From: an uncultured Bacteroidales bacterium
GTDB taxonomy: Bacteria > Bacteroidota > Bacteroidia > Bacteroidales > FEN-979
DNA: 64,000 nt
Assembly (NCBI GenBank): GCA_903903985.1
Contig: CAIVAT010000018.1
Location: 124,001 to 188,000, forward strand
Direction of reading: 5' to 3'
Shown here piece by piece: positions 12,583 through 61,773 of the stretch. Both the position numbers and the translations under genes were made by a program. Each line of letters starts with the position of its first letter. Positions within the stretch are counted from its first letter, which is position 1. The notes below the pieces were generated by a model. The model was not told the DNA's origin. It searched no databases and saw only the letters and a list, made by a program, of their open reading frames with translations.

Positions 12583-12615
12583 TGAACGCAGAGAACGCGG
12601 AGTTTATACGCAGGG
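12583..12615. repeat. Word array, family F (degenerate 8-mers AACGCAGA/GAACGCGG)
   Basis: Between convergent genes lie the words AACGCAGA, GAACGCGG, AGTTTATA and CGCAGG. They are related in reverse complement to the TGCGTCTT words at 53010-53040. No coding role is seen here. Confidence 0.5.
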
Positions 12616-12648
12616 GGCCGCTGAAACCATTTAAAGATCACCTTTGAT

Positions 12649-13113
12649 TTAAATATACAAAGCAGACCCATTGTTTTCTTCCAGGATTTTTTTTCTGAAT
12701 TCAAAAATTCCGGCCACCTTTTTATGGATGAAGAAGTTGTCGAGCAATTTCCCGATGATCCCCAAAGGAACCTTGTAAAAAAGCTTGTCTGTCATCATCA
12801 CTCCATTTTCCACGGGTTCAAAATAATGTTCATGATGCCAGATGGCATATGGACCTGAACGCTGATCATCAATGAAGTAAAATGGTTCTTTTACCTGGGT
12901 GATCTCCGTAACCCACGAAAACGGGATGCCCAATACCGGTGATACTTTATACGTGATGATCAATCCCGGGTAAATATTTTCCGGGACCCGGGAAGTAATG
13001 ATGAAGTTCATCGCTTTGGGAGTTATCCTGGCCAGGTTGGCAGGATTGCTGAAAAACTTCCAGGCATGTTCCACCGGAATCTGTAAATACTGTTTGAATT
13101 CAAGCTGCCGCAT
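12649..13113 (-). CDS. SRPBCC (START/Bet v1-like) family protein
   Basis: A 154-residue cytoplasmic lipid-binding-fold protein. MRQLEFKQYLQIPVEHAWKF begins the domain, and the sequence matches the polyketide cyclase/CoxG-like SRPBCC pattern with NPANLARITP and WHHEHYFEP. The start at 13113 is preferred. An ATG nine codons earlier (13140) overlaps a TAATTTTG promoter box and would sit upstream of the predicted transcript start. Such proteins are ligand binders or cyclases; the ligand is not known here. Confidence 0.8.
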   Translation of the reverse strand: MRQLEFKQYLQIPVEHAWKFFSNPANLARITPKAMNFIITSRVPENIYPGLIITYKVSPVLGIPFSWVTEITQVKEPFYFIDDQRSGPYAIWHHEHYFEPVENGVMMTDKLFYKVPLGIIGKLLDNFFIHKKVAGIFEFRKKILEENNGSALYI

Positions 13114-13137
13114 GATCATGGTTTTAATTACAGCATG

Positions 13138-13145
13138 CAAAATTA
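13138..13145 (-). promoter_or_regulatory. -7 box (TAATTTTG) for the SRPBCC gene
   Basis: On the minus strand TAATTTTG matches TAnnTTTG. Transcription would start near 13131, which argues for the downstream ATG at 13113. Confidence 0.5.
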
Positions 13146-13213
13146 TTCACTTTTCCTATGACCTGTTCATTATAAACGGTTCTCTGTTGACTTTTCCGTG
13201 GGAATATTCGTAG

Positions 13214-13250
13214 CATGTGACGCATGACAGGTGACAAATGAGCGTGACAG
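13214..13250. repeat. Word array, family B (GTGACGC/GTGACAA type)
   Basis: Short words based on GTGACNN (GTGACGC, ATGACAG, GTGACAA, GTGACAG) lie upstream of the O-methyltransferase. They are reverse complements of the GTCACGC words found near thrA and radA. Confidence 0.55.
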
Positions 13251-13296
13251 TATCAGAATGGATTTTTGTATTTTGCGGAAAAATAATTTACCAATG

Positions 13297-13992
13297 ATGA
13301 CAGAGATTCTTTTCAAATATTCCGAGGCCCACACCACCCCTGAACCCGCAGTCCTGGCCCGTTTGAATCGGGAAACCCACCTCTCGCAGGTATATCCGCA
13401 GATGTTGTCGGGGCATTTGCAAGGAGCCTTGCTCAGGATGATCGTTCAGATGCTTTGTCCGGAAAGGGTTCTGGAGATCGGAACTTTTACCGGTTATTCC
13501 GCGATCGCCATGGGATTGGGGATGCCCTCACCCCCGGCCCCTCCCGCAAGCGGGATGCCCTCACCCCCGGCCCCTCTCCCACAGGAGAGGGGAGGCGCGT
13601 TGTTGCACACGATTGAGGTTAATCCGGAACTGGAGGATGGGATACGCCGTGTTATCCGGGAGGCCGGACTGGAGGACCAGGTTGTTCTCCATATCGGGCA
13701 GGCAATTGATATTATCCCCGGACTTGACGAGATGTGGGACCTGGTGTTTATCGATGCGGATAAACCAAACTACCTGAATTATTACAACATGGTGTTGCCA
13801 AAGGTACGACCCGGAGGGTTTATCATTGCCGACAATGTGTTGTGGGATGGGAAGGTTACCGGCGATCCTGCAAAAATGGATAAGGATACACTTGGGATTG
13901 TTGAATTTAATAAATTTGTTCATCAAGACGAGCGGGTGGAAAACCTGATCCTGCCGATCAGGGATGGACTGATGATCATCAGGAAACTTTAA
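13297..13992 (+). CDS. O-methyltransferase (class I, catechol-type) with in-frame repeat insertion
   Basis: A SAM-dependent methyltransferase of the O-methyltransferase family 3, 231 residues from the ATG at 13297 (13294 is also an in-frame ATG). Motif I VLEIGTFTGYSAIAM lies near 58-72. Downstream are HTIEVNPELE (acidic loop), DLVFIDADKPNYL (metal-binding Asp) and IIADNVLWDGKV. Between motif I and the acidic loop, where relatives have a short turn, is a Pro-rich stretch GMPSPPAPPASGMPSPPAPL encoded by a palindromic repeat (13518-13594). Flanking fold elements stay in frame, so the enzyme may still work. The substrate is unknown. Confidence 0.9.
   Translation: MTEILFKYSEAHTTPEPAVLARLNRETHLSQVYPQMLSGHLQGALLRMIVQMLCPERVLEIGTFTGYSAIAMGLGMPSPPAPPASGMPSPPAPLPQERGGALLHTIEVNPELEDGIRRVIREAGLEDQVVLHIGQAIDIIPGLDEMWDLVFIDADKPNYLNYYNMVLPKVRPGGFIIADNVLWDGKVTGDPAKMDKDTLGIVEFNKFVHQDERVENLILPIRDGLMIIRKL
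13518..13594 (+). repeat. Palindromic repeat, family G, in frame inside the O-methyltransferase
   Basis: Two direct copies of a GC-rich unit beginning GGGATGCCCTCACCCCCGGC are offset by 33 bp (11 codons). The second copy ends in a perfect 9-bp hairpin, CCCCTCTCC (13571-13579) with GGAGAGGGG (13584-13592). The same family lies between genes at 19128-19209 and overlaps a sulfotransferase end at 51867-51938. Confidence 0.85.
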
Positions 13993-14009
13993 ATTAAAAT
14001 ACCGGCATC

Positions 14010-15413
14010 ATGAAATATTTGTTTGTGACCTTTTTTATCAGTTTGACCTGTCCTGCGATTTTTTCTCAAAACACAATGCTTCATCCGGTTGTTGATGAAC
14101 GGACTGAATTGCTGAGCATTGTATTCAGGATGGCCGGTTCACGGGAATACATGAACAGCGATATTAAAATTTATACCAGTGCCATTGATGATTATTTCAA
14201 AGGGTACAAAAATGACCCGTTGATAAAATTTGTCAGAAAAATCACAAAAAGGAGCGGTGTCTCTTTCGATGCAGTAATGTCGATGGCAGTGCACATTGAA
14301 CTGACAAATGGGACCATCAGTTTAATCAAGAATATCAGCAGTACCAGTCTTGACAGCCGATGGGGAAACAACAGTGAAAAATTCGTATCCCTGTTAAATG
14401 ATTTTTACCGGAAGAGTGATTTTTCCAGGTTCTTTGCCGAGCACAAAGCGTTGTATGCCTTGGCTGAAAAACGCTTGTCGGAAGTCGTTAAAACCATTGA
14501 CATGAATTGGTTTGAATCATTCTATGGAAAAAAACCGGATGTCGGTTACACGCTCATCATCAGCCTTTCAAATGGCGGATGCAACTATGGGCCTGAAGTC
14601 ATGTACCTGGATGGCAGGGAAGAGCTTTATTCAATCATCGGGTCATGGGAAACAGACAGTCTGGGATTCCCGGTCTATTCAAATGACATCTCTGAGACGA
14701 TCATTCATGAGTTCTGTCATTCATTCTGCGATCAGCTTGCCACCAGCTATTATCCGGAAATGAAAACAGTCGCAGACCGGTTTTTCAACCTTGTTCAGGA
14801 GAACATGCAGCGGCAGGCTTATATAAATGCGCGGTCGATGCTGAATGAAATACTGGTGCGGGCCTCGGTCATTGAATATTTTCATGCCCATCAGGCCAGC
14901 CAGGTAAAGATAAACAATTTGCTGGGAGCCGAGCAGGCCAGTGGATTTATCTGGATTGATACCCTTGTCGGCGCTTTCGGAAAATATGAAAAACTGCGCA
15001 AGGATTATCCGACGCTGGAGAAGTACATGCCGGAGATCGTTAAACTGCAAAACTCCTTATCTCCCGAGGAACAACAAAAAACAGCCGAAGCAAACAGGCC
15101 GCAACTTATTTCATTTTCAATCGGGAAAAACAGGTTGGATGTTGATCCTTCCATCAAGGAATTGCTGCTTACTTTCGACAGGCCCATGATGACAAGGCCC
15201 TATGGCATGAACAAGGGCAAATGCGGCGATAAGTGCTGGCCCAAAATCACATCTGTGAAATGGAACCCTGAGAAAAATAACGAGTTGATTATTTCATGGG
15301 AATTATTACCGGACCACCATTATTCCATGATCTTCCCGGCCCGGTTTATGATGGATGAGCATGGATTTTACATGAAAGAAACCTATTATTTAGACTTTAA
15401 AACCAAAAAATAA
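14010..15413 (+). CDS. DUF4932 domain protein, predicted secreted zinc-dependent protein
   Basis: A 467-residue protein with an N-terminal signal peptide (MKYLFVTFFISLTCPAIFSQ). HEFCH at residues 233-237 is an HExxH zinc motif within ETIIHEFCHSFCDQ, and the upstream ISLSNGGCNYGPEV stretch is typical of DUF4932. The C-terminal 100 residues look like a beta-sandwich domain (SIKELLLTFDRPM). It has the hallmarks of a gluzincin-type metallopeptidase, but proteolysis by this family has not been shown to my knowledge. It lies 17 bp after the O-methyltransferase and is convergent with purE. Confidence 0.8.
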   Translation: MKYLFVTFFISLTCPAIFSQNTMLHPVVDERTELLSIVFRMAGSREYMNSDIKIYTSAIDDYFKGYKNDPLIKFVRKITKRSGVSFDAVMSMAVHIELTNGTISLIKNISSTSLDSRWGNNSEKFVSLLNDFYRKSDFSRFFAEHKALYALAEKRLSEVVKTIDMNWFESFYGKKPDVGYTLIISLSNGGCNYGPEVMYLDGREELYSIIGSWETDSLGFPVYSNDISETIIHEFCHSFCDQLATSYYPEMKTVADRFFNLVQENMQRQAYINARSMLNEILVRASVIEYFHAHQASQVKINNLLGAEQASGFIWIDTLVGAFGKYEKLRKDYPTLEKYMPEIVKLQNSLSPEEQQKTAEANRPQLISFSIGKNRLDVDPSIKELLLTFDRPMMTRPYGMNKGKCGDKCWPKITSVKWNPEKNNELIISWELLPDHHYSMIFPARFMMDEHGFYMKETYYLDFKTKK

Positions 15414-15437
15414 CAAAGGATCCTCAACAGGAACAGC

Positions 15438-15944: not shown

Positions 15945-15968
15945 GAGTGCAGATTTCTGGTTACAACA

Positions 15969-15976
15969 CAAAAGTA
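15969..15976 (-). promoter_or_regulatory. -7 box (TACTTTTG) for purE
   Basis: Minus-strand TACTTTTG fits TAnnTTTG, 25 bp from the purE ATG. Together with the oppositely oriented box at 15990-15997 it makes a compact divergent promoter between two purine genes. Confidence 0.5.
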
Positions 15977-15989
15977 GATATATTTTACC

Positions 15990-15997
15990 TACCTTTG
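15990..15997 (+). promoter_or_regulatory. -7 box (TACCTTTG) for hpt
   Basis: TACCTTTG fits TAnnTTTG and lies 25 bp before the hpt ATG at 16022. It also argues against the longer hpt frame that begins at 15947. Confidence 0.55.
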
Positions 15998-16021
15998 TGC
16001 AAAAGTAACATATCACTGATT

Positions 16022-16589: not shown

Positions 16590-16745
16590 CCCCTGTCACT
16601 TTGTTCCCCTGTTACCCTGTTCCCCTGTTACCCTGTTCCCCTGTTACCCTGTTACCCTGTCACTTTGTTACCCTGTTACCCTGTTACCCTGTTACCCTGT
16701 TACCCTGTTACCCTGTCACTTTGTTCCCCTGTCACTTGTCACTTA
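16590..16745 (+). repeat. Octamer tandem array, family A (CCCTGTTA words)
   Basis: About 19 tandem 8-base words fill most of the hpt-adk gap. The main unit is CCCTGTTA, with variants CCCTGTTC, CCCTGTCA, CTTTGTTA and CTTTGTTC. The phase is kept across nearly the whole array, which means the unit is truly 8 bases. Reading through it gives a stop-free frame but no protein-like composition. The reverse complement of the same words lies in frame inside the MFS gene at 38195-38262. Confidence 0.93.
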
Positions 16746-16774
16746 TCAATCATCACCCCTAAAAACCACCTGCA

Positions 16775-17365: not shown

Positions 17366-17395
17366 TAAATCGTAAATCATAAATCGAAAATAAAT
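17366..17395 (+). repeat. Heptamer array, family D (AAATCGT words) before obgE
   Basis: The words AAATCGT, AAATCAT, AAATCGA and AAATAAA run directly up to the TTG start of obgE. Other members of this family lie at six more gene junctions in the window. Confidence 0.8.
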
Positions 17396-18391
17396 TTGTC
17401 TGATTCAAACTTTGTTGATTATGTGAAAATCCACTGTGCTTCCGGCAACGGCGGCGCAGGTTCACGGCATTTTATGCGTACCCGCACCAACGCACATGGA
17501 GGACCCGATGGCGGCGATGGCGGACGTGGCGGACATGTCATCCTTAAAGGAAACAGCCAGTTCTGGACGTTGCTGCATCTTAAATTCACAAAGCACCTCA
17601 AGGCTGAACATGGTGGTGCAGGCTCAAAGCAACTCATGCACGGGGCAAATGGAAAAGATGTCATCATCGATGTTCCCCTGGGAACTGTTGCCCGTGATTC
17701 GGAGACCGGTGAGTTTGAATGTGAGATCACAGAAGACGGCCAAACGTTCATTCTTGTCCCGGGAGGAAGGGGAGGCCTTGGGAATGACCATTTTAAAACG
17801 CCCACCCGGCAATCGCCCAAGTTCGCTCAACCCGGCGAACCTGGCCTTGAATTCTGGAAAGTCCTTGAATTGAAGCTTTTGGCCGACGTCGGTCTCGTCG
17901 GTTTTCCGAATGCAGGTAAATCAACGCTCCTTTCTGTTATTTCAGCGGCAAAGCCCCAGATAGCCGACTACCCCTTCACCACGCTGGTCCCAAATCTTGG
18001 AATTGTCAGGTATCATGACAATAAATCGTTTGTGATGGCCGACATCCCGGGGATTATTGAAGGTGCCAGTGAAGGCAAAGGCCTGGGATTGCGTTTTTTG
18101 CGACATATTGAGCGCAACGCTGCCTTGTTGTTCATGGTTCCGGTGGATACCAGGGATATCCGCAAAGAATATCAGATCCTGCTGAATGAGCTCTCGCAAT
18201 ACAATCCCGAATTGCTGGACAAAACACGGATCCTCGCAATTACAAAATCCGACCTGGCCGACGAGGAGATTCTGAATGAACTGAAAAAGGATTTACCTGA
18301 AATTCCGACTGTTTTTATCTCATCACACAGGCAAACGGGGCTTGAGAAATTGAAACAAATGCTTTGGGAAGAGCTTAACCGTGAAACGTAA
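17396..18391 (+). CDS. obgE: Obg family ribosome-associated GTPase
   Basis: A 331-residue GTPase that binds the 50S subunit late in assembly. The Gly-rich Obg fold fills residues 1-157 ([14 protein letters not shown]). The G domain has G1 [11 protein letters not shown] near 169, G2 within [13 protein letters not shown]3 DIPGIIEGA and G4 ITKSDL. The start is TTG ([13 protein letters not shown]); no ATG or GTG fits the family N-terminus. The last codons and the TAA are the first part of the family C word array at 18381-18454. It probably shares a transcript with adk. Confidence 0.96.
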
Positions 18392-18454
18392 ACCGAAAGA
18401 CGAAAGACGTTTCACGTCTTACGTCCTACGTCCTGCGTCCTGCGTCTCACGTCC
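18381..18454 (+). repeat. Heptamer array, family C (ACGTCCT words), overlapping the obgE stop
   Basis: The words TACGTCC, TACGTCC, TGCGTCC, TGCGTCT and CACGTCC are preceded by a partly inverted section (AAGACGAAAGACGTTTCACG). The obgE TAA at 18389-18391 falls inside the inverted section. The array ends 16 bp before the PAP2 gene. Confidence 0.8.
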
Positions 18455-24889: not shown

Positions 24890-24922
24890 AATCCAGGTTC
24901 AATGATCTGGTAAACGTATATT

Positions 24923-24950
24923 GTCACGCGTCACATGTCACGCGTCACGA
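24923..24950. repeat. Heptamer array, family B (GTCACGC words), supplying the radA stop
   Basis: Four tandem heptamers, GTCACGC, GTCACAT, GTCACGC and GTCACGA, lie between convergent xseB and radA. The radA TGA (minus strand, 24945-24947) is formed by the last word. Confidence 0.85.
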
Positions 24951-30539: not shown

Positions 30540-31769
30540 TCAGAGCGACCCTTCATCGTATGCCTTTTCCCCATGCAATGCCACATCCAGTCCAGCTTTC
30601 TCATGTTCTCCGGAAACTCTTACCGGTGTGATCAGGTTGATGAGGGCAAGCATGATATAAGTGAAAATAAAGGCATAAGCAGAAGCAGCAACAACGGTAA
30701 TCAGTTGTTTGAAGAAAAAAGTACCTTGGCCGAACCACAACCCTTCAGATAAAACAGCCGGATTGATCATTTTCGTTGCAAATACGCCAAGCAGGATGGT
30801 TCCCAGCAAGCCGCCTACGCCGTGAACTCCCCATACATCAAGCGCATCATCCCACTTCAGTTTGTTTTTCAACTGAACTGCCAGGTAGCAGGTAATCCCT
30901 GCTGCGACACCGATGATGGGAGCGGACCACATCGGGACAAAACCGGCACAGGGCGTAATGGTTGCCAACCCGGCAATGGAACCCGTGAGCAGACCCAACA
31001 GTTTTGGCCGTCCTTCCCTGATCCATTCCACAGCAACCCAGGCGGCTGTGGCAAATGAAGCAGCCACATCGGTGTTGATGAAAGCAAGTGCCGTGATTTT
31101 ATCAACCTGGAGCTCACTGCCGGCATTAAATCCGTACCAGCCAAACCAGAGCAGCCCGCTTCCGATGGCGACAAGCGGAATGCTGTTGGGGATCGAGCTT
31201 TTATCAGTCCTTGCCCCGACATAAAACACCGAGGCCAGTGCAGCGAAACCTGCTGTTGCATGAACCACGATTCCGCCGGCAAAGTCAAGAACCCCCCACT
31301 GTGCAAGCATTCCGTTGCCCCAGATCATGTGAACAAAAGGGTAATAAACCATGATCTGCCAAACCGTCAGGAAGATCATGTACGAACGGAAGGTCACACG
31401 GTTTACGAAAGCGCCGGTGATCAGGGCCGGGGTGATGATGGCAAACATCATCTGGTAAACGATAAAAACAATCTCGGGAATCTTGCCATTGCCGGCATAA
31501 ATGGAATCAATGCTTACACCATGGAGGAAAACTTTTTCCAGGTTGCCGAAAATTCCACCAACTCCGCCACTGAAGCAAAGCGAATAACCAAAGGTGACCC
31601 AAAGAACGGTCGTCCACCCCAGCGAGGCGAAACTCTGGATCATGATCCCAAGAATGTTTCTTTTCGTGGCAAGACCGCCATAAAAAAATGCCAGAGCCGG
31701 CGTCATTAACATCACCAGGCTTGCCGATAATAGCATGAACCCGGTTGAACCAACATCGATTGTTCCCAT
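30540..31769 (-). CDS. amt: Ammonium transporter (Amt family)
   Basis: A 409-residue membrane protein with eleven predicted helices. MLMTPALAFFYGGLATKRN is the family N-terminus after the first helix, and DFAGGIVVHATAGFAAL and DVWGVHGVGGLLGT carry the two pore His regions. No glnK PII gene lies beside it, which is unusual because amtB and glnK are usually linked. A TorF-like barrel gene lies directly upstream in the same direction. Its start is preceded by a heptamer array. Confidence 0.96.
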   Translation of the reverse strand: MGTIDVGSTGFMLLSASLVMLMTPALAFFYGGLATKRNILGIMIQSFASLGWTTVLWVTFGYSLCFSGGVGGIFGNLEKVFLHGVSIDSIYAGNGKIPEIVFIVYQMMFAIITPALITGAFVNRVTFRSYMIFLTVWQIMVYYPFVHMIWGNGMLAQWGVLDFAGGIVVHATAGFAALASVFYVGARTDKSSIPNSIPLVAIGSGLLWFGWYGFNAGSELQVDKITALAFINTDVAASFATAAWVAVEWIREGRPKLLGLLTGSIAGLATITPCAGFVPMWSAPIIGVAAGITCYLAVQLKNKLKWDDALDVWGVHGVGGLLGTILLGVFATKMINPAVLSEGLWFGQGTFFFKQLITVVAASAYAFIFTYIMLALINLITPVRVSGEHEKAGLDVALHGEKAYDEGSL

Positions 31770-31802
31770 TTTACAATTTTAGATTTACAATTTTAGAGTT
31801 AC
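31770..31802. repeat. Heptamer array, family D (TTTACAA/TTTTAGA words) before amt
   Basis: The 14-bp unit TTTACAATTTTAGA occurs twice, which equals four heptamers, directly upstream of the amt ATG and inside the gap to the barrel gene. Confidence 0.75.
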
Positions 31803-35241: not shown

Positions 35242-37620
35242 ATGCGGACATTTTTCGTACGAGAATCACGTAATAATTTTTTGAATATTTTTCTGCTTCT
35301 ATTGGTTTTCATCATCTTTAACAACCATCCGGGTTTGAAGGCCCAGGAAAAAACCGTCACCTACTATGCCGACCCGGCCGGGATTCCGCCTGATTTGCCA
35401 ATAGCGATCAAGCACCTTACTGCCCATGTCCGTTTTCAGGCTGAGAAAAATCTTGTTTTAGGAACGGCTGAATTTACATGCATCCAAAACAGGGAACAGG
35501 TCGATTCCATTGTATTTCATACCCCCGATTTCAAGATCTCTTCCGTAAAAATGGATGATCAGGATGTTCAATTTCACCAAACCGGCAGCAACCTGGTCAT
35601 CAATCCCCCTTCCCACGTCTCACGTCTATCGAATAACCTCCCGCGTCCCACATCCCGCATCCTCATCTCCTATACCGCCACTCCGCTGGCCGGCCCTATT
35701 TATTTCATTGGCTGGCGCCCCGAAGAAACAGGCAAGCGCAAGCAAATATGGGCACATCGCCCGCACGGATGGATTCCATACATGGATGGCCGCATCACGG
35801 CTGACCTGTTCATCACTTTTGACAGTAAATTCAAAGTGTATTCCAACGGTGAACGGCTGGAGGTAAAGGATAATGCCGATGGTACCAGCACCTGGCATTA
35901 TGCCATGATAAAGGACCATCCTTTTTTTTCTACAGCACTGGTGATTGGCGATTACAATTATAAAAGCGCGAAAACATCACGGGGAGTGCCGCTTGAATTC
36001 TGGTATTATTCCGATATGCCCGACCGTGTTGGCACAACCTATAGGTATACCGAACGGATGTTTGATTTCCTGGAAAAGGAACTGGATTTCAACTATCCAT
36101 ATCCGCTGTACCGCGAAGCGCCGGTGATCGATTACATGTATGGAGCAATGGAAACCACCACAAGCACAATCTTCGGAGACTTTATGCTGATCAATCCCAG
36201 GGCATGGTGGCAGCGGAATTATGTGAATGTGAATGCCCACGAACTGGCGCACCAGTGGTTCGGGAATTGTGTGGCCCATTTTGTGAACCGGGATGTGTGG
36301 CTGACCGAAAGCTTTGGCACCTATTATGCCAAATTGTTCGAAAAGAGCATTTATGGTGAAGATTATTACCAGAATATCCGCAATGATGAAATGCGCCTGG
36401 CTTTCGAAGCCTCTGCCAAAAACGATTACCCGGTCGGGGGCAGCCAGGGCGGTGTTCAGCGGATCTACCAGAAAGGATCGCTGGTGCTCGACATGCTTCG
36501 TGATGTCATGGGAGCAGGGGCATACAGGGATGCAGTAAAGCGTTACCTTCAAAAATATGCATTCGGTTCCGCCGAAACCAACGATTTCATCCGCTGTACT
36601 TACGAGGCAACAGGAAAACCCTGGAACTGGTTTTTCGACCAGTGGGTAAGGAGAGGAGGTGAACCCGATTACCTGGTAAAGGATACGGTCACTGTTGATT
36701 CGCTGGGAAACGGAAATATCCTTTTTAAAATCAGGCAGGTCCAGAAAGTCAATGAGCTGAATGGACTGTTTAAAATGCCGTTTGCTTTTGAAGTGCATTA
36801 CCAGGATGGTACAAGTGTGCATCAGGAAGCCTGGATCGAAAATCAATACACGGAGGTTCCTGTGCCAATTCAAGGGAACAAACCGATTGACTTTCTTCTC
36901 TTTGATCCCGGCAGGAGAATATTGAAAAAGGTAACGTTCACGCAATCCGTTGAAAGGCTTCTGGCACAGGCCCAAAAAGCAGACAACATGATCGACCGGT
37001 ACGATGCCTGGCTGGCCTTGCGAAAGGAACCGGTTTCAAAAAAAGCGGAAATCCTGGTTTCTTCTTTTAAAAAGGAATCCTTCTGGCTGATCCGGTCAGA
37101 GATTCTACAGCAGCTGGCAGCGGATCATTCACCTGAAACTGTAGAATTGTTCAGGCAGGCGTTGCTTGACAAGGATGCCAATGTCAGAAAATCAGCGCTG
37201 TTGCTGGTCAATCCGGTTCCCGATCTGCTTCAAAGCACCGTGGAAGAGATGTTGTATGATTCCAGCTACCTCAACGTCGAATATGCCCTGGAAGCACTGT
37301 GCACTTCCTTTCCGAAGAGCCTGGATTACTATCTTGAACTTGCCCGGGACATGGAGGGATGGCGTGGAAAAAATATCCGGATGATGTGGCTTTCATTGGC
37401 TATTAAAAACGGAAAAATGGAATTTCTGTCTGAACTCATCAACTACAGCAGCCCGAAATACGAATTCGAAACCCGGATGAACGCATTCAACCTCATGGCA
37501 AAACTGAAATACTCCGATGCGGAAACGCTTAAATATGCAGAGGCAGCGAGCAAACACTGGAACAACAAGCTAAGTGGCGCGGCGAAGGAATATCTTAAAA
37601 ATAGCGAATTAGCAAAATAG
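35242..37620 (+). CDS. M1 family metallo-aminopeptidase with in-frame repeat insertion
   Basis: A 792-residue exported peptidase with a signal peptide (NIFLLLLVFIIFNNHPGLKAQ). The exopeptidase loop is GAMET at 301-305 (GAMEN in many relatives). The zinc site is HELAH at 333-337, with the third ligand Glu 356 in WLTESFGTYYA. HEAT-like C-terminal repeats occupy about 580-790. Residues of about 123-142 in the N-terminal beta domain (SHVSRLSNNLPRPTSR) are encoded by a family C repeat. The last residues, NSELAK, and the stop come from a family E array shared with the start of the MFS gene. Confidence 0.93.
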   Translation: MRTFFVRESRNNFLNIFLLLLVFIIFNNHPGLKAQEKTVTYYADPAGIPPDLPIAIKHLTAHVRFQAEKNLVLGTAEFTCIQNREQVDSIVFHTPDFKISSVKMDDQDVQFHQTGSNLVINPPSHVSRLSNNLPRPTSRILISYTATPLAGPIYFIGWRPEETGKRKQIWAHRPHGWIPYMDGRITADLFITFDSKFKVYSNGERLEVKDNADGTSTWHYAMIKDHPFFSTALVIGDYNYKSAKTSRGVPLEFWYYSDMPDRVGTTYRYTERMFDFLEKELDFNYPYPLYREAPVIDYMYGAMETTTSTIFGDFMLINPRAWWQRNYVNVNAHELAHQWFGNCVAHFVNRDVWLTESFGTYYAKLFEKSIYGEDYYQNIRNDEMRLAFEASAKNDYPVGGSQGGVQRIYQKGSLVLDMLRDVMGAGAYRDAVKRYLQKYAFGSAETNDFIRCTYEATGKPWNWFFDQWVRRGGEPDYLVKDTVTVDSLGNGNILFKIRQVQKVNELNGLFKMPFAFEVHYQDGTSVHQEAWIENQYTEVPVPIQGNKPIDFLLFDPGRRILKKVTFTQSVERLLAQAQKADNMIDRYDAWLALRKEPVSKKAEILVSSFKKESFWLIRSEILQQLAADHSPETVELFRQALLDKDANVRKSALLLVNPVPDLLQSTVEEMLYDSSYLNVEYALEALCTSFPKSLDYYLELARDMEGWRGKNIRMMWLSLAIKNGKMEFLSELINYSSPKYEFETRMNAFNLMAKLKYSDAETLKYAEAASKHWNNKLSGAAKEYLKNSELAK
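35612..35667 (+). repeat. Family C words in frame inside the M1 peptidase
   Basis: CCACGTCT, CACGTCT, then CCGCGTCC, CACATCC and CGCATCC follow the ACGTCC word pattern of the array at 18381-18454. They encode a Ser/Arg/Pro-rich insert between two beta strands, and no stop arises in the used frame. Confidence 0.7.
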
Positions 37621-37637
37621 CGAAATGGCGAAATCTG
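37597..37637 (+). repeat. Octamer array, family E (AATAGCGA words), bridging M1 and MFS genes
   Basis: The words AATAGCGA, ATTAGCAA, AATAGCGA, AATGGCGA and AATCTGGC contain the last codons and TAG of the M1 gene, the 4-bp gap, and the ATG GCG AAA start of the MFS gene. Confidence 0.85.
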
Positions 37638-38884
37638 GCAACTACAAAATCCTCACCCGCACCGTCCTCCTCGTTTCTTTCGTGAGCCTGTTTACTGACG
37701 TTGCCAGTGAGATGCTCTATCCCATCATGCCGGTTTACCTGAAATCCATCGGGTTCTCAGTGCTTCTCATCGGAATCCTTGAAGGAGTGGCAGAAGCCAC
37801 TGCAGGATTAAGTAAAGGCTATTTCGGTCATTTGTCGGATATCCGCGGCAAACGCGTCCCTTTTGTCCGCGCTGGTTATACCCTGAGTGCCATTTCCAAA
37901 CCCATGATGGCCATCCTGACCTTCCCGGTATGGATCTTCTTTGCCCGCACCCTCGACCGGTTCGGCAAGGGAATCCGCACCAGCGCACGCGATGCCATGC
38001 TCAGCGACGAAACCATGCCAGAACATAAGGGTAAGGTATTCGGATTTCACCGTTCCATGGATACCGTGGGAGCTGCCATCGGCCCGATCCTTGCGCTCGT
38101 GTTCCTGTGGTTCTACCCGGGACAGTACAAATGGATGTTCATGATCGCCTTCTTTCCGGGACTGGTGGCCATTGGGCTTACGTTCCTTTTGAAAGACAGG
38201 GTAACAGGGTTACAAGGTGACAGGGTAACAGGGTTACAAGGTGACAGGGTGACAAAGTCACAAATGTCGTCTGCCCGGCCGACCATCAACCCGTCCACCA
38301 AAGTCGGCTTCTTCTCTTTTCTCAGATATTGGTCAAAGGCTTCATCAGGATTCCGTTTCCTGGTTGCCGGACTGCTGGCTTTTACACTGTTCAACAGCTC
38401 CGATGCATTCCTGTTGCTGGCGTTGAAAGAACAACATCTTTCAGATACCTGGATGATCGGGGTTTATATCTTTTACAACCTGGTTTATGCCATGTTCTCT
38501 TATCCGATCGGGGCACTTGCCGATAAAATCGGACTGAAAACAATGCTGATCACCGGCCTGTTCCTTTTTGCAATTGTATATACTTTCATGGGTTTTGTTT
38601 CTTCCCTGGCCATGTTCGGGGTTCTTTTCTTCCTTTACGGGATCTATGCCGCGTGCACCGAAGGAATTTCAAAAGCGCTGATCTCCAACATGGCAGCGAA
38701 AGCGGATACCGCAACAGCCATCGGATTTTACAACAGTTTTGCCAGTATCTTTACGCTGCTTGCCAGCTCATTGGCCGGTGTGCTGTGGTATGCCATCGGG
38801 CCGAAAGCGATGTTCATGGTTTCCGGGATGGGAGTTTTCGTGGTCGCCTGTTACCTGGTGATGGTGTTTCGGGTGAAAAGGTGA
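37625..38884 (+). CDS. MFS transporter with octamer-encoded loop
   Basis: A 419-residue twelve-helix major facilitator. The motif-A-like loop GYFGHLSDIRGKRVPFV lies after helix 2, and FGKGIRTSARDAML is typical of the bacterial MFS group that contains this RTSARD block. The central loop between helices 6 and 7 contains DRVTGLQG twice and then DRVTKSQ (residues 191-213). These are encoded by a family A octamer array in which three octamers make eight codons. The insertion is in a soluble loop where length is tolerated. Substrate unknown. It begins 4 bp after the M1 stop. Confidence 0.93.
   Translation: MAKSGNYKILTRTVLLVSFVSLFTDVASEMLYPIMPVYLKSIGFSVLLIGILEGVAEATAGLSKGYFGHLSDIRGKRVPFVRAGYTLSAISKPMMAILTFPVWIFFARTLDRFGKGIRTSARDAMLSDETMPEHKGKVFGFHRSMDTVGAAIGPILALVFLWFYPGQYKWMFMIAFFPGLVAIGLTFLLKDRVTGLQGDRVTGLQGDRVTKSQMSSARPTINPSTKVGFFSFLRYWSKASSGFRFLVAGLLAFTLFNSSDAFLLLALKEQHLSDTWMIGVYIFYNLVYAMFSYPIGALADKIGLKTMLITGLFLFAIVYTFMGFVSSLAMFGVLFFLYGIYAACTEGISKALISNMAAKADTATAIGFYNSFASIFTLLASSLAGVLWYAIGPKAMFMVSGMGVFVVACYLVMVFRVKR
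38195..38262 (+). repeat. Octamer array, family A, in frame in the MFS loop
   Basis: A 24-bp super-unit (octamers GACAGGGT, AACAGGGT, TACAAGGT) is present twice, followed by a third partial copy. It is the reverse complement of the CCCTGTTA words at 16590-16745. Two identical 24-bp copies point to recent slippage or duplication. Confidence 0.93.
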
Positions 38885-40687: not shown

Positions 40688-40731
40688 CCGCTCACGATTT
40701 CGCTATTTCACGATTTCGCTACCCCGCTATC
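40688..40731. repeat. Octamer array, family E (GATTTCGC words)
   Basis: The words GATTTCGC, TATTTCAC, GATTTCGC, TACCCCGC and TATC lie in the gap between divergent T9SS and TonB genes. They are the reverse complement of the GCGAAATA-type words at 37597-37637. Confidence 0.8.
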
Positions 40732-43641: not shown

Positions 43642-43652
43642 AGAATTTTTTT

Positions 43653-43679
43653 CATTGTTTTCATTGTTTTCATTGTTTT
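43653..43679. repeat. Nonamer array, family H (CATTGTTTT x3)
   Basis: Three exact copies of CATTGTTTT. On the minus strand they read AAAACAATG and provide three successive ATGs upstream of the Spy-like gene. A degenerate relative (CATTGCTTG, CATTGGTTG) lies at 49590-49625. Confidence 0.8.
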
Positions 43680-43702
43680 CAATTTTTTTTTTAAGCTTTC
43701 AA

Positions 43703-46428: not shown

Positions 46429-46483
46429 CTGGTTTGTAACTGGCCGCCAAATTAAGTTTTTATCCCGTTATGGCAAAATATTT

Positions 46484-46491
46484 TACCTTTG
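46484..46491 (+). promoter_or_regulatory. -7 box (TACCTTTG) for the ACP gene cluster
   Basis: TACCTTTG fits TAnnTTTG, 27 bp before the ACP ATG at 46518. It lies inside a longer possible reading frame from 46470, which argues for the shorter ACP. Confidence 0.55.
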
Positions 46492-46517
46492 CTATCTTAA
46501 AACTATTGAAAGGGGAC

Positions 46518-46751
46518 ATGGAAGAGTTTATTAAACATATTGAAGCTGAATTTGATGACCTTAAACCGGGCGTATTGATGGCGGACAGTAATTTCAGGGA
46601 AACATTTGAATGGAATTCGATCAATGCGCTGATACTGATCGCCATGGTAAAAACCGAGTATGATGTAACCCTTACCGCAGATGACCTGATCCAATCAAAA
46701 ACCGTCAATGATCTGTATTCACTGATCGACAACCGTAAATCCAAATCCTAA
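46518..46751 (+). CDS. Acyl carrier protein
   Basis: A 77-residue four-helix carrier protein beginning MEEFIKHIEAEFDD. The phosphopantetheine attachment serine is in FEWNSINALILI, where the usual DSL is replaced by NSI. VKTEYDVTLTADDLIQSKTV matches helix III and the following loop. It is not the housekeeping AcpP, judging from the altered site and the context of ketosynthase III and SDR. The last codons (NRKSKS) and the stop are encoded by family D heptamers that continue to the next ATG. Confidence 0.88.
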   Translation: MEEFIKHIEAEFDDLKPGVLMADSNFRETFEWNSINALILIAMVKTEYDVTLTADDLIQSKTVNDLYSLIDNRKSKS

Positions 46752-46772
46752 TTCGTAAATCGTAAATCCCAC
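46735..46772 (+). repeat. Heptamer array, family D (AAATCGT words), spanning the ACP stop
   Basis: The words CGTAAAT, AAATCCT, AATTCGT, AAATCGT and AAATCCC run from the ACP C-terminal codons through its TAA to the ketosynthase ATG at 46773. Confidence 0.8.
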
Positions 46773-48615: not shown

Positions 48616-48657
48616 TTGACAAATCGTAAATTGCAAATCGTAAACTGTAAATTGCAG
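48616..48657 (+). repeat. Heptamer array, family D, before the glycosyltransferase
   Basis: Tandem words AAATCGT, AAATTGC, AAATCGT, AAACTGT and AAATTGC lie directly upstream of the ATG at 48658. The frame is open through the array from a TTG, so an N-terminal extension of 14 residues is formally possible. Confidence 0.85.
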
Positions 48658-49589: not shown

Positions 49590-49625
49590 AATGCAACCAA
49601 TGCAAGCAATGTAAGGAATGAGTGG
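49590..49625 (+). repeat. Nonamer array, family H (AATGCAACC words)
   Basis: AATGCAACC, AATGCAAGC, AATGTAAGG and AATGAGTGG are in register right after the glycosyltransferase stop. The reverse complement resembles the CATTGTTTT array at 43653-43679. Confidence 0.75.
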
Positions 49626-53009: not shown

Positions 53010-53040
53010 TTTTTCGCGTCTTTGCGTCTTCGCGGTAAAA
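53010..53040. repeat. Octamer array, family F (TGCGTCTT words)
   Basis: CGCGTCTT, TGCGTCTT and CGCGGTAA lie 6 bp upstream of the sulfotransferase GTG start. They are related to the words at 12583-12615. Confidence 0.7.
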
Positions 53041-58192: not shown

Positions 58193-59230
58193 GAACAGGT
58201 CTCTTATGCTGTCGTTCGTAGCCTTGATAATTCCCTTTTCAGTAATAATTCCCGTGATCAATCTGGCAGGAGTAACATCGAATGCGGGGTTGAAGGCCGA
58301 AGATCCGGGCGAACACACCCGTATTCTTTTATGGAGGCCTTCTTCTGTAATTCCGTCCTGGTAAAGTACTTCATCCTCATTGCGTTCCTCGATGGGGATG
58401 GTGTTGCCGGCGTGACAATCCAAATCAAATGTGGAAGTAGGAGCGGCTACATAAAAAGGGATGCCAAATTCTTTTGCGGCGATGGCTTTCTCCAAAGTCC
58501 CTATTTTATTGGCCACATCACCGTTGGCAGCGATGCGGTCGGCGCCGACGATCATCAGGTCGATCTTTCCCAGCGACATCAGCCATGCACCTGCATTGTC
58601 GGGGATAATTGTGTGGGGAACACCAGCCTGTTTGAGTTCCCAGGCAGTAAGTCGCGCTCCCTGGCTCCTGGGGCGTGTTTCATCGGCATAGACAAAAATT
58701 TTCTTTCCCTGCTGATGGGCCAGGTATACCGGTGACAAAGCAGTGCCATAATCCACAAAAGCCAGCCAGCCGGCATTGCAATGGGTTTCAATGTTCATTC
58801 CATCGAGGATCAGTTCGTTTCCGAACCTGCCGATGTTCCTGGAATCGGCAGCATCCTGGTTTGCAACCTGTTGCGATGCAGCAACCGCCAACAGGGGTGA
58901 CGTCAGCGCCTGGTTAAAAACCTTTTCCACGGCATAAAAAAGATTTCGGGCGGTGGGACGTGTAGATTCGATTTCGGTTCTGGCCCGCTGAAGGAAAAAC
59001 AGCGTATCCTTTTCAGGAGCTTCCAATGCCGCCTGGGCCATGGCGAAACCGGCCATGGCTCCGATGGCGCCTGCCCCGCGGATCATCATTGTCCGGATGG
59101 CATGACAACTTTCGCTGTATGTCCTGGCTTCCTGAATGTTGAATTGAAAGGGCAACAGGTTTTGTTCAATGAAAAAAACCGAGGGTCCTTCCATCCAAAC
59201 AGTCCTGTAATCTGTGCCGTTAACATTCAT
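58172..59230 (-). CDS. mtnA: S-methyl-5-thioribose-1-phosphate isomerase
   Basis: A 352-residue methionine-salvage isomerase converting methylthioribose 1-phosphate to methylthioribulose 1-phosphate. IRTMMIRGAGAIGAMAGFA (about 48-66), the catalytic Cys in ETHCNAGWLAF near 155 and the catalytic Asp in IVGADRIAANGDVANKIGT near 240 are present. Other methionine-salvage genes are not adjacent. The C-terminal residues GGIAK and the stop are part of a family E array. Confidence 0.94.
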   Translation of the reverse strand: MNVNGTDYRTVWMEGPSVFFIEQNLLPFQFNIQEARTYSESCHAIRTMMIRGAGAIGAMAGFAMAQAALEAPEKDTLFFLQRARTEIESTRPTARNLFYAVEKVFNQALTSPLLAVAASQQVANQDAADSRNIGRFGNELILDGMNIETHCNAGWLAFVDYGTALSPVYLAHQQGKKIFVYADETRPRSQGARLTAWELKQAGVPHTIIPDNAGAWLMSLGKIDLMIVGADRIAANGDVANKIGTLEKAIAAKEFGIPFYVAAPTSTFDLDCHAGNTIPIEERNEDEVLYQDGITEEGLHKRIRVCSPGSSAFNPAFDVTPARLITGIITEKGIIKATNDSIRDLFSGGIAK

Positions 59231-59319
59231 ATGCGAAACTTATTCTGAGTCCGGTTCTGGTGGCCACCCCGAACACGGAGCGCTTTATCCCCGTTTTCCA
59301 TGGTAGTGGAAGCTGGCAT

Positions 59320-59949
59320 TCAAATGATCTTGAACCCAAGACTGATAACAAATACGTTCCCCTTGGAATTTACTGTATAAACGGTCCCGTTTGAGCCGGT
59401 CACATCGCTGATCAGGCTGTTAAGACCTGTCTGGTAACGGATATCCAGTGTCATGAAAAGTATATCCAAACCGGTGCCGGCCTGCAGGTACCAATTGGTG
59501 GTGTTCAGGTCTGATTTCTCGATAGGTCCGGTGAGGTTAAGGTTTTCGATTTTGGAATTTACGACAAAGGATGCTTCGGGTCCAACCATGATCCGCCATT
59601 TCAGAAGTTTGGACTGGATGATCGTAAAACCTATCAGAACAGGAACATCCAGGGTTCCTACGGTGACTTTCTGCTTCCAGTCATCGATTGTGCCAATGCC
59701 AAGGTTTTCAAAAGTCGCCCCTGAAAGGGTGTAGTAAAACTCAGGTTGCAAATGAACCCGTTTGCCGATCCTGGCAAAGACCCCTGCATGAAACCCGGAA
59801 CGCATGCTCGATTTAATGGAGTCGATGCTGGTACTGATGTTGGAAGCATTGTACCCGAGTTTTATTCCAAAATCGATCTGGGCATTGGATTGTTCCGATG
59901 TGAAAAGAGTTAAAATAAAGACGATCAGGATAAAACATGTTTTTTTCAT
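59320..59949 (-). CDS. PorT-like outer-membrane beta-barrel protein
   Basis: A 209-residue protein with a signal peptide (MKKTCFILIVFILTLFTSEQSNA). The typical start IDFGIKLGYNASNI is followed by alternating strands ending GNVFVISLGFKII. This is the outer-membrane beta-barrel family common in Bacteroidota (DUF3575/PorT-like). No ligand is known. It has its own promoter box and is separated from serS by about 110 bp. Confidence 0.8.
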   Translation of the reverse strand: MKKTCFILIVFILTLFTSEQSNAQIDFGIKLGYNASNISTSIDSIKSSMRSGFHAGVFARIGKRVHLQPEFYYTLSGATFENLGIGTIDDWKQKVTVGTLDVPVLIGFTIIQSKLLKWRIMVGPEASFVVNSKIENLNLTGPIEKSDLNTTNWYLQAGTGLDILFMTLDIRYQTGLNSLISDVTGSNGTVYTVNSKGNVFVISLGFKII

Positions 59950-59974
59950 CTCCGCATGGGTTTGGTTAACTCAT

Positions 59975-59982
59975 CAAAAGTA
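59975..59982 (-). promoter_or_regulatory. -7 box (TACTTTTG) for the barrel gene
   Basis: Minus-strand TACTTTTG fits TAnnTTTG, 26 bp before the ATG at 59949. Confidence 0.5.
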
Positions 59983-60059
59983 GAAAATAAAAGTTAAAAA
60001 TCAGAAATTTTGTTGGCCCAATGAATGTGCAACCTTCCGGTGAGCCATGTGTCACGTTG

Positions 60060-61331
60060 TCATTCTATCCTCTCAAACCCCGTATAAGGAACCAAAGCCG
60101 CTGGAATGGTAATGCCATCGTGGGACTGGTTATTTTCAAGGAGCGCGGCCACGATGCGGGGAAGGGCAAGGGCACTGCCGTTCAGGGTATGGGCTGTTTG
60201 AATTTTTCCCGCCTCATCCTTGAATCTTAGTTTCAGCCGGTTTGATTGAAAGGTTTCAAAATTGGAGATGGAACTCACTTCCAGCCATCTGGCCTGCGCC
60301 GCTGACCAAACCTCCATGTCGTAGGTCAGTGCAGAGGTAAAACTCATGTCGCCACCGCAGAGTTTTAGCACACGGAACGGAAGGCCGAGTTTGCGCAATA
60401 GGCCTGTTACATAGGCCCGCATTTCTTCAAGTATTTCATATGATTTTTCAGGATGGGCGATTTGGACGATCTCCACTTTATCGAATTGGTGCAGGCGGTT
60501 CAGCCCCCGGACATCCTTGCCATAAGAACCCGCTTCGCGGCGGAAGCAGGCCGAATATGCAACGTTCTTCAAAGGAAGGTCGGCCCCTTTCAGGATGATA
60601 TCGCGGTAAATATTGGTAACCGGCACCTCTGCTGTTGGGATGAGATAGAGATCATCAAGTCCGACATGGTACATCTGGGCATCCTTGTCGGGCAATTGCC
60701 CGGTAGCATAGGCTGATGCCGCGTTTACCATATACGGAGGCTGTACTTCCGTGTATCCTGCCTTGAGCGCTTCGTCAAGAAAAAAATTGATCAGTGCACG
60801 CTGTAGTCTGGCTCCTTTTCCTTTGTATAAAGGGAACCCGGCACCGGTTATTTTATTCCCGGTGAGAAAATCAATGATGTCGTATTTTGTGGTCAGGTCC
60901 CAATGCGGAACATCTGTTGGGGATGCAGGAATAATTTCACCTTCCTGTGCCACCACTAGGTTGTCTTCCGGTGTTTTTCCTGCTGGAACAGAAGGATGGG
61001 GGAGGTTTGGCACGCGAACCAGGATATCATCCAGTTCCTTCTTGATGTTTTCGAGTGCCAGGTCAAATTCTTTGCCCAGGATTTTCAATTCTCCTGTTTT
61101 TTCTTTTAACTGGTTTGCCGCGGCCGTATTACTGGATTGAAAAAGCACGCCAATCTCTTTGGCGATGAGGTTGCCCTGTGCCTGCGTGTCGTCAAGTTTT
61201 TTCTGTGTTTCCCGGCGTTGATTATCAAGTTCAACAATCCGGTTGATCACTTCAGACCCGTCAAAGTTTTTAAGGGCAAGTCTGTCAATAACCTCCTGGG
61301 TATTTTCACGGATGAAATTCAATGAGAGCAT
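60060..61331 (-). CDS. serS: Seryl-tRNA synthetase
   Basis: A 423-residue class II synthetase charging tRNA-Ser. An N-terminal antiparallel coiled coil (about 25-105) is followed by motif 2 in FRREAGSYGKDVRGLNRLHQF near 275-295 and motif 3 in LNGSALALPRIVAALLENNQ near 390, where GSGLA is changed to GSALA. Length is normal. It lies downstream of rplU-rpmA, separated from them by a strong terminator and its own promoter box. Confidence 0.97.
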   Translation of the reverse strand: MLSLNFIRENTQEVIDRLALKNFDGSEVINRIVELDNQRRETQKKLDDTQAQGNLIAKEIGVLFQSSNTAAANQLKEKTGELKILGKEFDLALENIKKELDDILVRVPNLPHPSVPAGKTPEDNLVVAQEGEIIPASPTDVPHWDLTTKYDIIDFLTGNKITGAGFPLYKGKGARLQRALINFFLDEALKAGYTEVQPPYMVNAASAYATGQLPDKDAQMYHVGLDDLYLIPTAEVPVTNIYRDIILKGADLPLKNVAYSACFRREAGSYGKDVRGLNRLHQFDKVEIVQIAHPEKSYEILEEMRAYVTGLLRKLGLPFRVLKLCGGDMSFTSALTYDMEVWSAAQARWLEVSSISNFETFQSNRLKLRFKDEAGKIQTAHTLNGSALALPRIVAALLENNQSHDGITIPAALVPYTGFERIE

Positions 61332-61351
61332 AAAAAAAGATATTTAATGAG

Positions 61352-61359
61352 CAAAAATA
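61352..61359 (-). promoter_or_regulatory. -7 box (TATTTTTG) for serS
   Basis: Minus-strand TATTTTTG fits TAnnTTTG, 21 bp from the serS ATG. It lies just downstream of the rpmA terminator, so serS is probably transcribed separately. Confidence 0.5.
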
Positions 61360-61381
61360 GTGAAAAACCATTGTTGGGATC

Positions 61382-61416
61382 AAAAAAAATGCCGGCCTGG
61401 GCTACCCCATGCCGGC
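61382..61416 (-). terminator. Intrinsic terminator of rplU-rpmA
   Basis: On the minus strand GCCGGC, TGGG, a 4-nt loop, CCCA and GCCGGC form a 10-bp stem with one mismatch, followed by ATTTTTTTTG. This is a classic rho-independent terminator 45 bp past the rpmA stop. Confidence 0.85.
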
Positions 61417-61461
61417 TTTCATCAAGATATTCCAAACGCACGCAAAGCCGTGCAATATTCT

Positions 61462-61731
61462 TTAATTGGCAGTTTCCTCCATCGGAACGATAGAAACAAA
61501 GGAACGGTCACTCCGCTTTTTCTTGAATTCCACAATGCCTTCTATAAGGGCGAAAAGGGTATGATCCTTGCCGATGCCGACATTCAGGCCGGGATTATGC
61601 ACTGTTCCGCGCTGCCGGAGAATAATTGCTCCCGGTTTTGCGTACTGACCACCATAAATTTTAACACCTAAACGTTTGCTATGCGATTCCCGGCCGTTGC
61701 TTGAACTACCAGCCCCTTTTTTGTGTGCCAT
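61462..61731 (-). CDS. rpmA: 50S ribosomal protein L27
   Basis: An 89-residue protein starting [20 protein letters not shown], with no N-terminal cleavage extension of the Firmicutes type. [20 protein letters not shown] and [14 protein letters not shown] are diagnostic. It follows rplU by 36 bp, the standard L21-L27 pair; the spacer contains a heptamer array. A strong terminator follows. Confidence 0.98.
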
Positions 61732-61744
61732 ACCACTAAATATT

Positions 61745-61773
61745 ATTTACGATTTACGATTTGCGATTTACAA
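61745..61773. repeat. Heptamer array, family D (GATTTAC words), between rplU and rpmA
   Basis: The plus-strand words GATTTAC, GATTTAC... are GATTTAC, GATTTGC and GATTTAC in register. The rplU TAA (61768-61770 on the minus strand) is part of the array. Confidence 0.8.

Follow-up and report, generated by a model that had tools for sequence, protein, structure and literature searches.

The DNA analysed here, referred to as the window, is a stretch of 64,000 nucleotides (nt) from an uncultured Bacteroidales bacterium (contig CAIVAT010000018.1, positions 124,001 to 188,000). It carries adk, obg, a gene for the large subunit of exonuclease VII, and neighbouring genes for an M1 peptidase and a major facilitator superfamily (MFS) transporter; Pfam matches of its proteins include several that are typical of Bacteroidota, namely a secretion-system C-terminal sorting domain, CarboxypepD_reg-like and TonB plug. 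Between these genes, across some of their ends and within the transporter gene lie short tandem arrays of degenerate words of 7, 8 or 9 bp (Table 1). The original prediction, made from the letters of the window, had described them as true periodic arrays in fixed register, and both Tandem Repeats Finder (TRF) and printing of the sequence in register place them where it had put them, with periods 7 to 9 concentrated. The word arrays are a real, above-chance and unusual system of a known but unexplained class. Genes were called with a simple caller of our own, without curation, and all genomes used are draft contigs.

At a score of at least 40, TRF returned 10 rows of period 7 to 9 in the window, whereas 30 segment-wise dinucleotide shuffles averaged 0.07 and never exceeded 1; at scores of at least 35 and 30, the counts were 15 against 0.87 (maximum 2) and 22 against 5.2 (maximum 11). 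Given this shuffled yield at the lowest score, the weakest rows (e.g., 12584-12602, 3788-3806, and 63470-63489) may be chance products, and the row at 17506-17534 is by our reading merely the glycine-rich start of the obg coding sequence. De novo detection was then applied to 684 kb of the own genome (that of the window; a 5.2-Mb draft of 195 contigs), including contigs C13 and C34, which were chosen because of matches there to the octamer family A. Mainly intergenic arrays of periods 7, 8, and 9 numbered 20, 16, and 4, versus 0, 0, and 0.2 in shuffles, so that the excess over shuffled sequence expected by the original prediction is present; mainly coding arrays numbered 7, 5, and 2. The period is restricted: within these 684 kb there are no intergenic arrays of periods 4-6, 10, 12, or 13, three of period 11, and three of period 14, a double 7. 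Among 54 own-genome arrays of period 7 to 9 (threshold 13), 27 are heptamers, 21 octamers, and 6 nonamers. Seven own contigs (C8, C12, C13, C62, C94, C96, and C125) end in or very near word arrays, mostly of family A; the arrays therefore probably break short-read assemblies and are undercounted.

The words of the window had been sorted into seven families, lettered A to F and H. We scored their recurrence as doublets with at most 1 mismatch in the 620 kb of own genome outside the window, relative to 12 permuted words. Family D gave 22 loci (permuted mean 0.4, maximum 2), A gave 9 (mean 0.0, maximum 0), E gave 6 (mean 0.5, maximum 6, one permuted word equalling E), and B gave 4 (mean 0.9, maximum 3). 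With 2 mismatches allowed, the nonamers H1 (CATTGTTTT) and H2 gave 6 loci (mean 0.7, maximum 2) and 2 loci (mean 0.4, maximum 2). Family C had no doublet locus at up to 1 mismatch in these 620 kb, and F had one (mean 0.1, maximum 1). In the whole own genome, A doublets with up to 2 mismatches occur 425 times versus 2 for the reversed word, and D triplets with up to 1 mismatch 61 times versus 0. Recurrence is thus strong for families A and D, weaker for E, B, and H, and absent for C and F. The words are accordingly shared well beyond the window, as had been anticipated, but seven is not a clean count of families, as A, B, and other words with a TRAC core (R being A or G) are closely alike.

The system had been taken as that of one genome. 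It is present there, but the phenomenon is that of a whole genus with a common vocabulary. In 1.79 Mb from 19 genomes, a threshold of 12 gave 193 arrays, built from 104 distinct words. Of 6981 word pairs across genomes, 246 are identical, a count that includes pairs at orthologous junctions (same-junction pairs sharing words number only 38, in 34 junctions); random intergenic words yielded 8.7 such pairs on average, and no more than 17 in any of 50 draws. The words are therefore not simply seeded by local sequence. Word load differs greatly between species. Next to the 425 matches in the own genome, A doublets occur 337 times in G008, 158 in G003, 137 in G018, 79 in G017, 31 in G009, 27 in G013, and 15 in G012, and 1 to 4 times in the other 11 of the 18 congeners; the reversed A control was not zero everywhere (46 in G003, 12 in G018). 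D triplets number 525 in G001, 340 in G007, 323 in G013, 228 in G018, and 144 in G012, against 61 in the own genome and 0 in G005 and G010, with a reversed control of 0 in all 41 genomes. Across the phylum, the D word has at least one match in 37 of 247 genomes (own included), with a control match in three by our count. Densities per 100 kb are biased, because several stretches in G003, G013, G016, G017, and others, as well as the four in G040, were chosen for a pattern or protein match on the contig.

Two further observations concern genomes outside the genus. G040, from another family of the same order, has 196 matches of AATTCGT type and 133 to the reversed A word ATTGTCCC; it represents another family with frequent words of its own. 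The exact triple A word occurs once each in L181, L184, L187, L190, L194, and L199, from metagenome-assembled genomes named Anaerolineae, Bacteroidaceae, Prolixibacteraceae, Chloroflexi, Saprospiraceae, and Pyrinomonadaceae, which are either real occurrences or binning errors.

Many words contain one of the five cores TRAC, GGAC, CAATG, AAWTC, and AAATAGCG, and 66 of the 193 arrays fall outside every family. All six families tested are most constant at the core positions when the units of an array are compared; in family B, for example, the TGAC core varies at 2-8% and the next two positions at 25-26%. Families were assigned with words that we chose, which introduces some circularity into the constancy of the core from one array to another and less into the figures within arrays. 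The octamer A family has species dialects: 34% of pairs are identical within a genome versus 5% between genomes (0 of 1000 permutations), with TAACAGAG in G017 and TAAAATGG in G014 as examples. The B word TGACGCG forms 8 arrays in 5 genomes. Outside arrays, single words occur at approximately 0.6 times (TGACGCG, 3 versus 5) to 2.2 times expectation, and 4 of 15 forms (AAATCGT, CAATGCA, AAATAGC, and AATAGCG) lie by our reckoning above the 95th percentile of all heptamers.

Comparison of the same junctions in sister genomes, as the original prediction had proposed, revealed mostly different words, sometimes the same word, and sometimes no array. A sister orthologue was found for 108 of 462 own junctions (349 pairs in all). 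Of these, 34 have at least three sister orthologues, all within one 41-kb stretch (C18:120944-161625); arrays are present in 41 of their 287 copies and are confined to 8 of the junctions. Co-occupied pairs number 104, against 29.6 after within-genome shuffling (0 of 2000 shuffles); some junctions are hot for arrays. Two arrays have the same word, with up to 1 mismatch, in 38 of 157 cases when they occupy one junction and in 62 of 1069 when they occupy different ones, so that most co-occupied junctions have swapped words, with some word memory left. At the junction of the M1 peptidase and MFS genes, sisters have AAATAGCG, AAACGGGT, AAACAGCG, AAGCGGAC, AATGACC, AAAAATC, or no array, and an AAATCGT array stands between adk and obg in 5 of the 17 sisters with that junction (G001, G017, G004, G013, and G007).

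Placement at gene junctions, also part of the original prediction, holds for most arrays, but the array at 38195-38264 is inside the open MFS gene, and others are in genes too. Among the 193 arrays, 114 are wholly intergenic, 50 overlap a gene end, and 29 are inside genes, 24 of the 193 lying 45 nt or more from either end of the called gene that contains them. Arrays avoid divergent junctions, occurring at 6 of 163, compared with 99 of 645 tandem ones (p = 2e-5 for the difference); convergent junctions have them in 11 of 105 cases. At tandem junctions with room to move (100 arrays), 40 arrays are within 10 nt of the upstream stop codon versus 16.5 expected, and 17 are within 15 nt of the downstream start versus 20.1 expected. 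The A and B words are oriented such that the strand with TAA/TGA reads away from the gene, and 12 of 16 sense arrays of these TRAC words, versus 1 of 15 antisense, are within 10 nt of the stop. This polarity may arise because the word itself supplies the stop codon. A tendency of D arrays to hug start codons is unconvincing: 5 of the 12 in sense orientation come within 15 nt, where 2.9 would be expected. At C18:58886-61141 of the own genome, two D-type arrays lie between the halves of what we read as a candidate cysteine desulfurase-SelD fusion protein.

Within proteins, repeat DNA shapes the sequence in frame. A run of three octamers passes through every reading frame, so that a stop codon comes into frame unless one of the three stop-bearing units is altered. 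In the own MFS gene, a 24-bp unit of three octamers has its third changed to TTACAAGG; the frame thereby stays free of stops, and the array is translated as VTGLQGDR repeats. The central loop of this transporter has A-type words in the own genome, G008, and G013, GGACAAGC words in G014, and TTACAGCG words in G009; among the relatives read (8 of 16), G001, G005, G011, and G012 are without such a repeat and G015 has a remnant. Words also differ in one loop of the M1 peptidase, where G008, G001, and G003 have heptamers of TGAC type and G016 has the unrelated repeat VPRPSSL; homologous protein follows beyond the loop. In MurB of the own genome (Pfam MurB_C; C34:102377-103621, L028:2377-3621), an octamer A array encodes approximately 35 residues; MurB of G003 (L152:6521-7651) has an A array as well. 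The own murB gene changes via TTACAAGG just as the MFS gene does, with 4 copies of the 24-bp unit versus 2, and the frame-open units of the two genes are alike at 23 of 24 bases. A search of 21 genomes (own, 12 congeners, and 8 others) located this open pattern as an exact doublet in the own MFS and murB genes only, with 4 overlapping matches. The G003 murB has one mismatch to the pattern, and the other own matches, among those listed, have 2, nearly always with the stop-bearing TRAC kept. The two genes also share CAA in place of CAG, a synonymous change, which makes a common origin through copying more likely than convergence.

Table 1. Word arrays of the window, with score or basis of each call
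Positions	Strand	Array	Location	Basis
16591-16748	-	Family A, octamer TRACAGGG (CCCTGTTA on +), approximately 18 copies, with 7-bp TGTCACT stretch at end	Between phosphoribosyltransferase gene and adk	TRF 193, 31 for 7-bp end; register printing; Pfam of neighbours
17366-17391	+	Family D, heptamer AAATCGT	Between adk and obg	TRF
18414-18454	+	Family C, heptamer ACGTCCT	Between obg and PAP2-family gene	TRF 47
24922-24949	-	Family B, heptamer TGACGCG (GTCACGC on +)	Between convergent genes, downstream of exonuclease VII large-subunit gene	TRF
31768-31802	.	Additional array TTTACAATTTTAGA, 14-bp unit, outside the original prediction's list		TRF 59
37599-37634	+	Family E, octamer AAATAGCG	Spans end of peptidase M1 gene and start of MFS gene	TRF 51
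38195-38264	+	Family A, 24-bp higher-order unit	Within MFS transporter gene	TRF 113 (24-bp period); sister proteins
40692-40717	-	E-like octamer (TCGCTATT / TCACGATT)	Between divergent genes	TRF 38
43645-43688	-	Family H, nonamer CAATGAAAA (CATTGTTTT on +)		TRF 67 and 70
46734-46768	+	Family D	Ends 4 nt ahead of ATG start; first part overlaps end of called gene 46470-46751	TRF 42
48621-48652	+	Family D	Ends 5 nt ahead of called start of next gene	TRF 36
49590-49620	+	Family H, CAATGCAAG	8 nt after last base of called gene	TRF 41
53013-53034	.	Family F, TGCGTCTT, 2.8 copies, weak		TRF 37; whole-window chance expectation 0.87 rows at a score of at least 35
61745-61771	-	Family D (ATTTACG on +)	3' end of minus-strand gene 61768-62142	TRF 47

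We favour, at about an even chance, the reading that the arrays are a Bacteroidales variant of the short tandemly repeated repetitive (STRR) sequences of cyanobacteria and the long simple sequence repeats (LSSR) of prokaryotes, combining growth by slippage with ectopic copying between loci. "Naked" degenerate tandem arrays would grow and shrink in whole units via slipped-strand replication, for which there is slight direct evidence, and words would spread among unrelated loci by ectopic copying at short microhomologies, through template switching or short gene conversion. New arrays would persist where harm is small, i.e., just past stop codons, at operon junctions, and in a few protein loops, the last retaining units with an open reading frame, and selection would purge arrays from divergent promoter regions. 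With somewhat less than an even chance, a genus-wide process of this kind may write words from a shared, species-accented vocabulary into junctions and protein loops, giving MurB and the transporter nearly the same peptide repeat and homologous loops differing words. The closest pair of genomes, G006 and G011 (96.5% identity), has indels of at least 4 bp at 3 of 9 compared repeat loci and none in 30.8 kb of other aligned DNA; one is a clear 7-bp unit, and the others are of 17 bp or within a poorly aligned stretch. The 40 and 31 kb fetched from this pair contain no plain arrays, and a composite dispersed motif is found instead. At most of 20 G006 loci (L279-L298), this motif of approximately 34 bp consists of AATCGTAAATCGTAAATC, a 3-5-nt spacer, and CAATCGTAAAT; some loci share a longer left flank, and the D-like motif is possibly a small mobile or regulatory element.

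Several observations weigh against slippage growth with copying between loci. The evidence for unit steps comes from very few loci, and no clean empty-site insertion was seen among the sisters compared, which, except for one array-poor pair, are at most approximately 77% identical in DNA, so that no clean empty site is showable. The words of D, B, E, and H are no more alike within genomes than between them, and the within-genome excess for all heptamers pooled is not significant (p = 0.23); the likeness between genomes fits selection or intrinsic preference as well as it fits copying. The occurrence of D words in 37 of 247 genomes of the phylum is hard to explain by copying within genomes alone, and the enrichment of 4 of 15 single-copy forms suggests that seeds may be somewhat enriched. 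Variation at fixed phase looks like recognition; alternatively, it could come from inherited array polymorphism, and the representative words chosen help define the core. Finally, the frame-open unit of the MFS and murB genes could have arisen by convergence.

The main rival is that the arrays are multivalent RNA or DNA binding sites for one or more sequence-specific proteins that read the core and leave the spacer free, with selection keeping them as post-transcriptional or 3'-end signals. Such sites would fit the phase-specific constancy in all six families (p-values being overstated, since units are not independent), the D arrays ahead of obg in the own genome and 5 of 17 sisters, the hot junctions, and the polarity of TRAC words. 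However, this polarity is explicable by the stop codon within the word, single copies are enriched approximately twofold at most, the word at a junction usually differs among species, some congeners lack a given word (D in G005 and G010), and the arrays within the MurB, MFS, and peptidase genes are in non-regulatory positions; we consider binding sites rather unlikely. Independent local slippage, by which arrays would grow from chance near-repeats and slippage-prone words recur without copying, would be consistent with a heptamer preference that is general in bacteria and tied to the polymerase footprint (Mrazek 2007, as cited in PMC4679880), with the dispersal of D words across the phylum, and with 10 of 13 heptamer words of a cyanobacterial plasmid that are identical to, or one change from, those found here. 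This too is unlikely: exact identity (2 of 13) is near the chance level of 7.6% each, word load varies by species in one genus (A, 1 to 425 matches), the octamer dialects are genome-specific, and random local words would give just 8.7 shared pairs. The features of the genus, with 19 species genomes (not all array-rich), an overlapping vocabulary, hot junctions with different words, bursts of one word from 0 to more than 500 matches, and arrays inside genes including murB, make local slippage, ectopic copying, and selection for a binding protein separable by strain sequencing.

Writing of the repeats by telomerase-like reverse transcription, as in DRT10, or by another templated enzyme appears very unlikely. 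DRT10 makes tandem-repeat cDNA, with a 9-nt period in one system described in PMC12632851, and unit lengths overlap. In the 21 draft genomes searched, however, G012, which has arrays (5 in 40 kb; 144 D matches), has no RVT_1 match, an absence that rests on incomplete drafts and hence is no proof. The sole RVT_1 match of the own genome resembles, by our reading, a group II intron maturase, and at the four reverse transcriptase loci examined no dictionary word occurs in 1.5 copies that could serve as template. Reverse transcriptase counts do not track arrays, and reverse transcriptases were rejected as their source. Carriage by repetitive extragenic palindromic (REP) sequences, their hairpin-forming doublets (REPIN), or other small transposable elements is similarly improbable for the own genome, even though it has Y1 transposases and an unrelated dispersed repeat of 70-110 bp, and the D-like words of G006 form part of a longer dispersed motif. 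Array flanks in the own genome are unshared (only 3 of 99 matching pairs join two of the 62 array-bearing intergenic segments), and a larger mobile element was rejected on the same ground. Counts of Y1 (REP-associated tyrosine) transposases do not track array load, with no Y1 match in the array-bearing G008 (337 A matches), G012, and G016.

The dispersed repeat itself links up to 23 intergenic segments into one group (e.g., C34:60560-61109, C13:62939-63082, and C11:4575-4728); segment C18:21024-22543 spans a Y1 transposase match, and the repeat looks REP-like and unrelated to the word arrays. Hairpin-forming inverted pairs were rejected as the general form, as opposite-strand doublets are present in 20 of 382 flanks, same-strand doublets in 14, and the control in 1.9% (36/1910). 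Inverted word pairs are real for some loci, not general. Hairpin-capable inverted pairs of the same word within approximately 140 bp occur in G018 (C5, stretch 60001-140000, at 14097-14203), G014 (C54:6201-6319), and G015 (C204:14560-14760). Rfam was compared with 12 sources, the window plus 11 loci, and no family reached its gathering score.

Cyanobacterial STRR and prokaryotic LSSR are heptamer-rich, degenerate, dispersed tandem repeats, and Rickettsia palindromic elements are longer insertions, not tandem words, that sit in frame within genes. The arrays of the genus resemble the former in their degenerate head-to-tail words far above shuffled expectation and in the presence of one word at many unrelated, mainly intergenic loci, and the latter in that repeat DNA is tolerated in frame inside proteins. 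They differ from STRR and LSSR in their multi-period shared vocabulary and in the in-frame 24-bp units in essential genes, which we did not find in the literature on that class; units of up to 11 nt are included in LSSR according to PMC4679880. The STRR precedent named by the original prediction is a fair one. In a 320-kb stretch of plasmid A of Trichormus variabilis, there are 13 heptamer, 2 octamer, and 2 nonamer arrays, and none after shuffling. Of the 13 heptamer words, 2 are identical to own words (approximately 1 expected), 8 are one change off, and 3 are two changes off; a vocabulary shared with cyanobacteria was rejected, as the exact matches are about as frequent as chance. The plasmid arrays are the same kind of thing, with no proof of a common vocabulary.

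Among dispersed heptamers, the GGGAATC repeats of Xanthomonas and GGGGA(C/T)T of Nostoc (186 and 183 degenerate repeats in two Xanthomonas genomes; PMC4692102) are alike in their conserved core positions, mostly intergenic placement, and length variation among relatives, and GGGAATC also in coding-strand copies near or overlapping stop codons. In that work one G-rich, quadruplex-forming word type was examined per genome, whereas the words of the genus are many and mostly without long G tracts. The heptanucleotide repeats in the P6b stem of the Nostoc tRNALeu intron (Class I TDNGATT, Class II NNTGAGT; PMC4476775) share degenerate 7-nt words with fixed and free positions and the repeated replacement of word class at one locus in evolution; they differ in that they occupy a single structured RNA locus constrained by folding.

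The closest described system is that of TAACTGA heptamer arrays in Beggiatoaceae, Cyanobacteria, and some Bacteroidetes, five of which have mixed heptamer arrays alongside (MacGregor 2015, PMC4679880). It too consists of short tandem words at many loci, mostly intergenic with few inside genes, is patchy among close relatives, and has other heptamers mixed in. According to that paper, one heptamer was studied and in the main organism lies mostly just upstream of start codons, whereas in the genus the units are of 7, 8, and 9 bp, the arrays cluster after stop codons, and the several words belong to a genus-wide vocabulary and are swapped at junctions; the 17 of 100 arrays near starts show no Beggiatoa-type placement. 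The original prediction, which knew of no description of a multi-family system of 7-, 8-, and 9-mers in a Bacteroidota genome, is wrong or incomplete in this respect, since heptamer arrays are already known in Flexibacter, Paludibacter, Gramella, Aequorivita, and Elizabethkingia (PMC4679880). The papers found on cyanobacteria, Xanthomonas, and Beggiatoaceae appear to give no explanation of how one heptamer reaches hundreds of unrelated sites. Searches of the open-licence literature yielded no description of a genus-wide vocabulary of several periods for Bacteroidota, which is weak evidence of novelty. What is new relative to these systems is the mixture of 7-, 8-, and 9-bp units, the shared vocabulary with species dialects, the swapping of words at hot junctions and in protein loops, and the near-identical frame-open unit in two unrelated genes.

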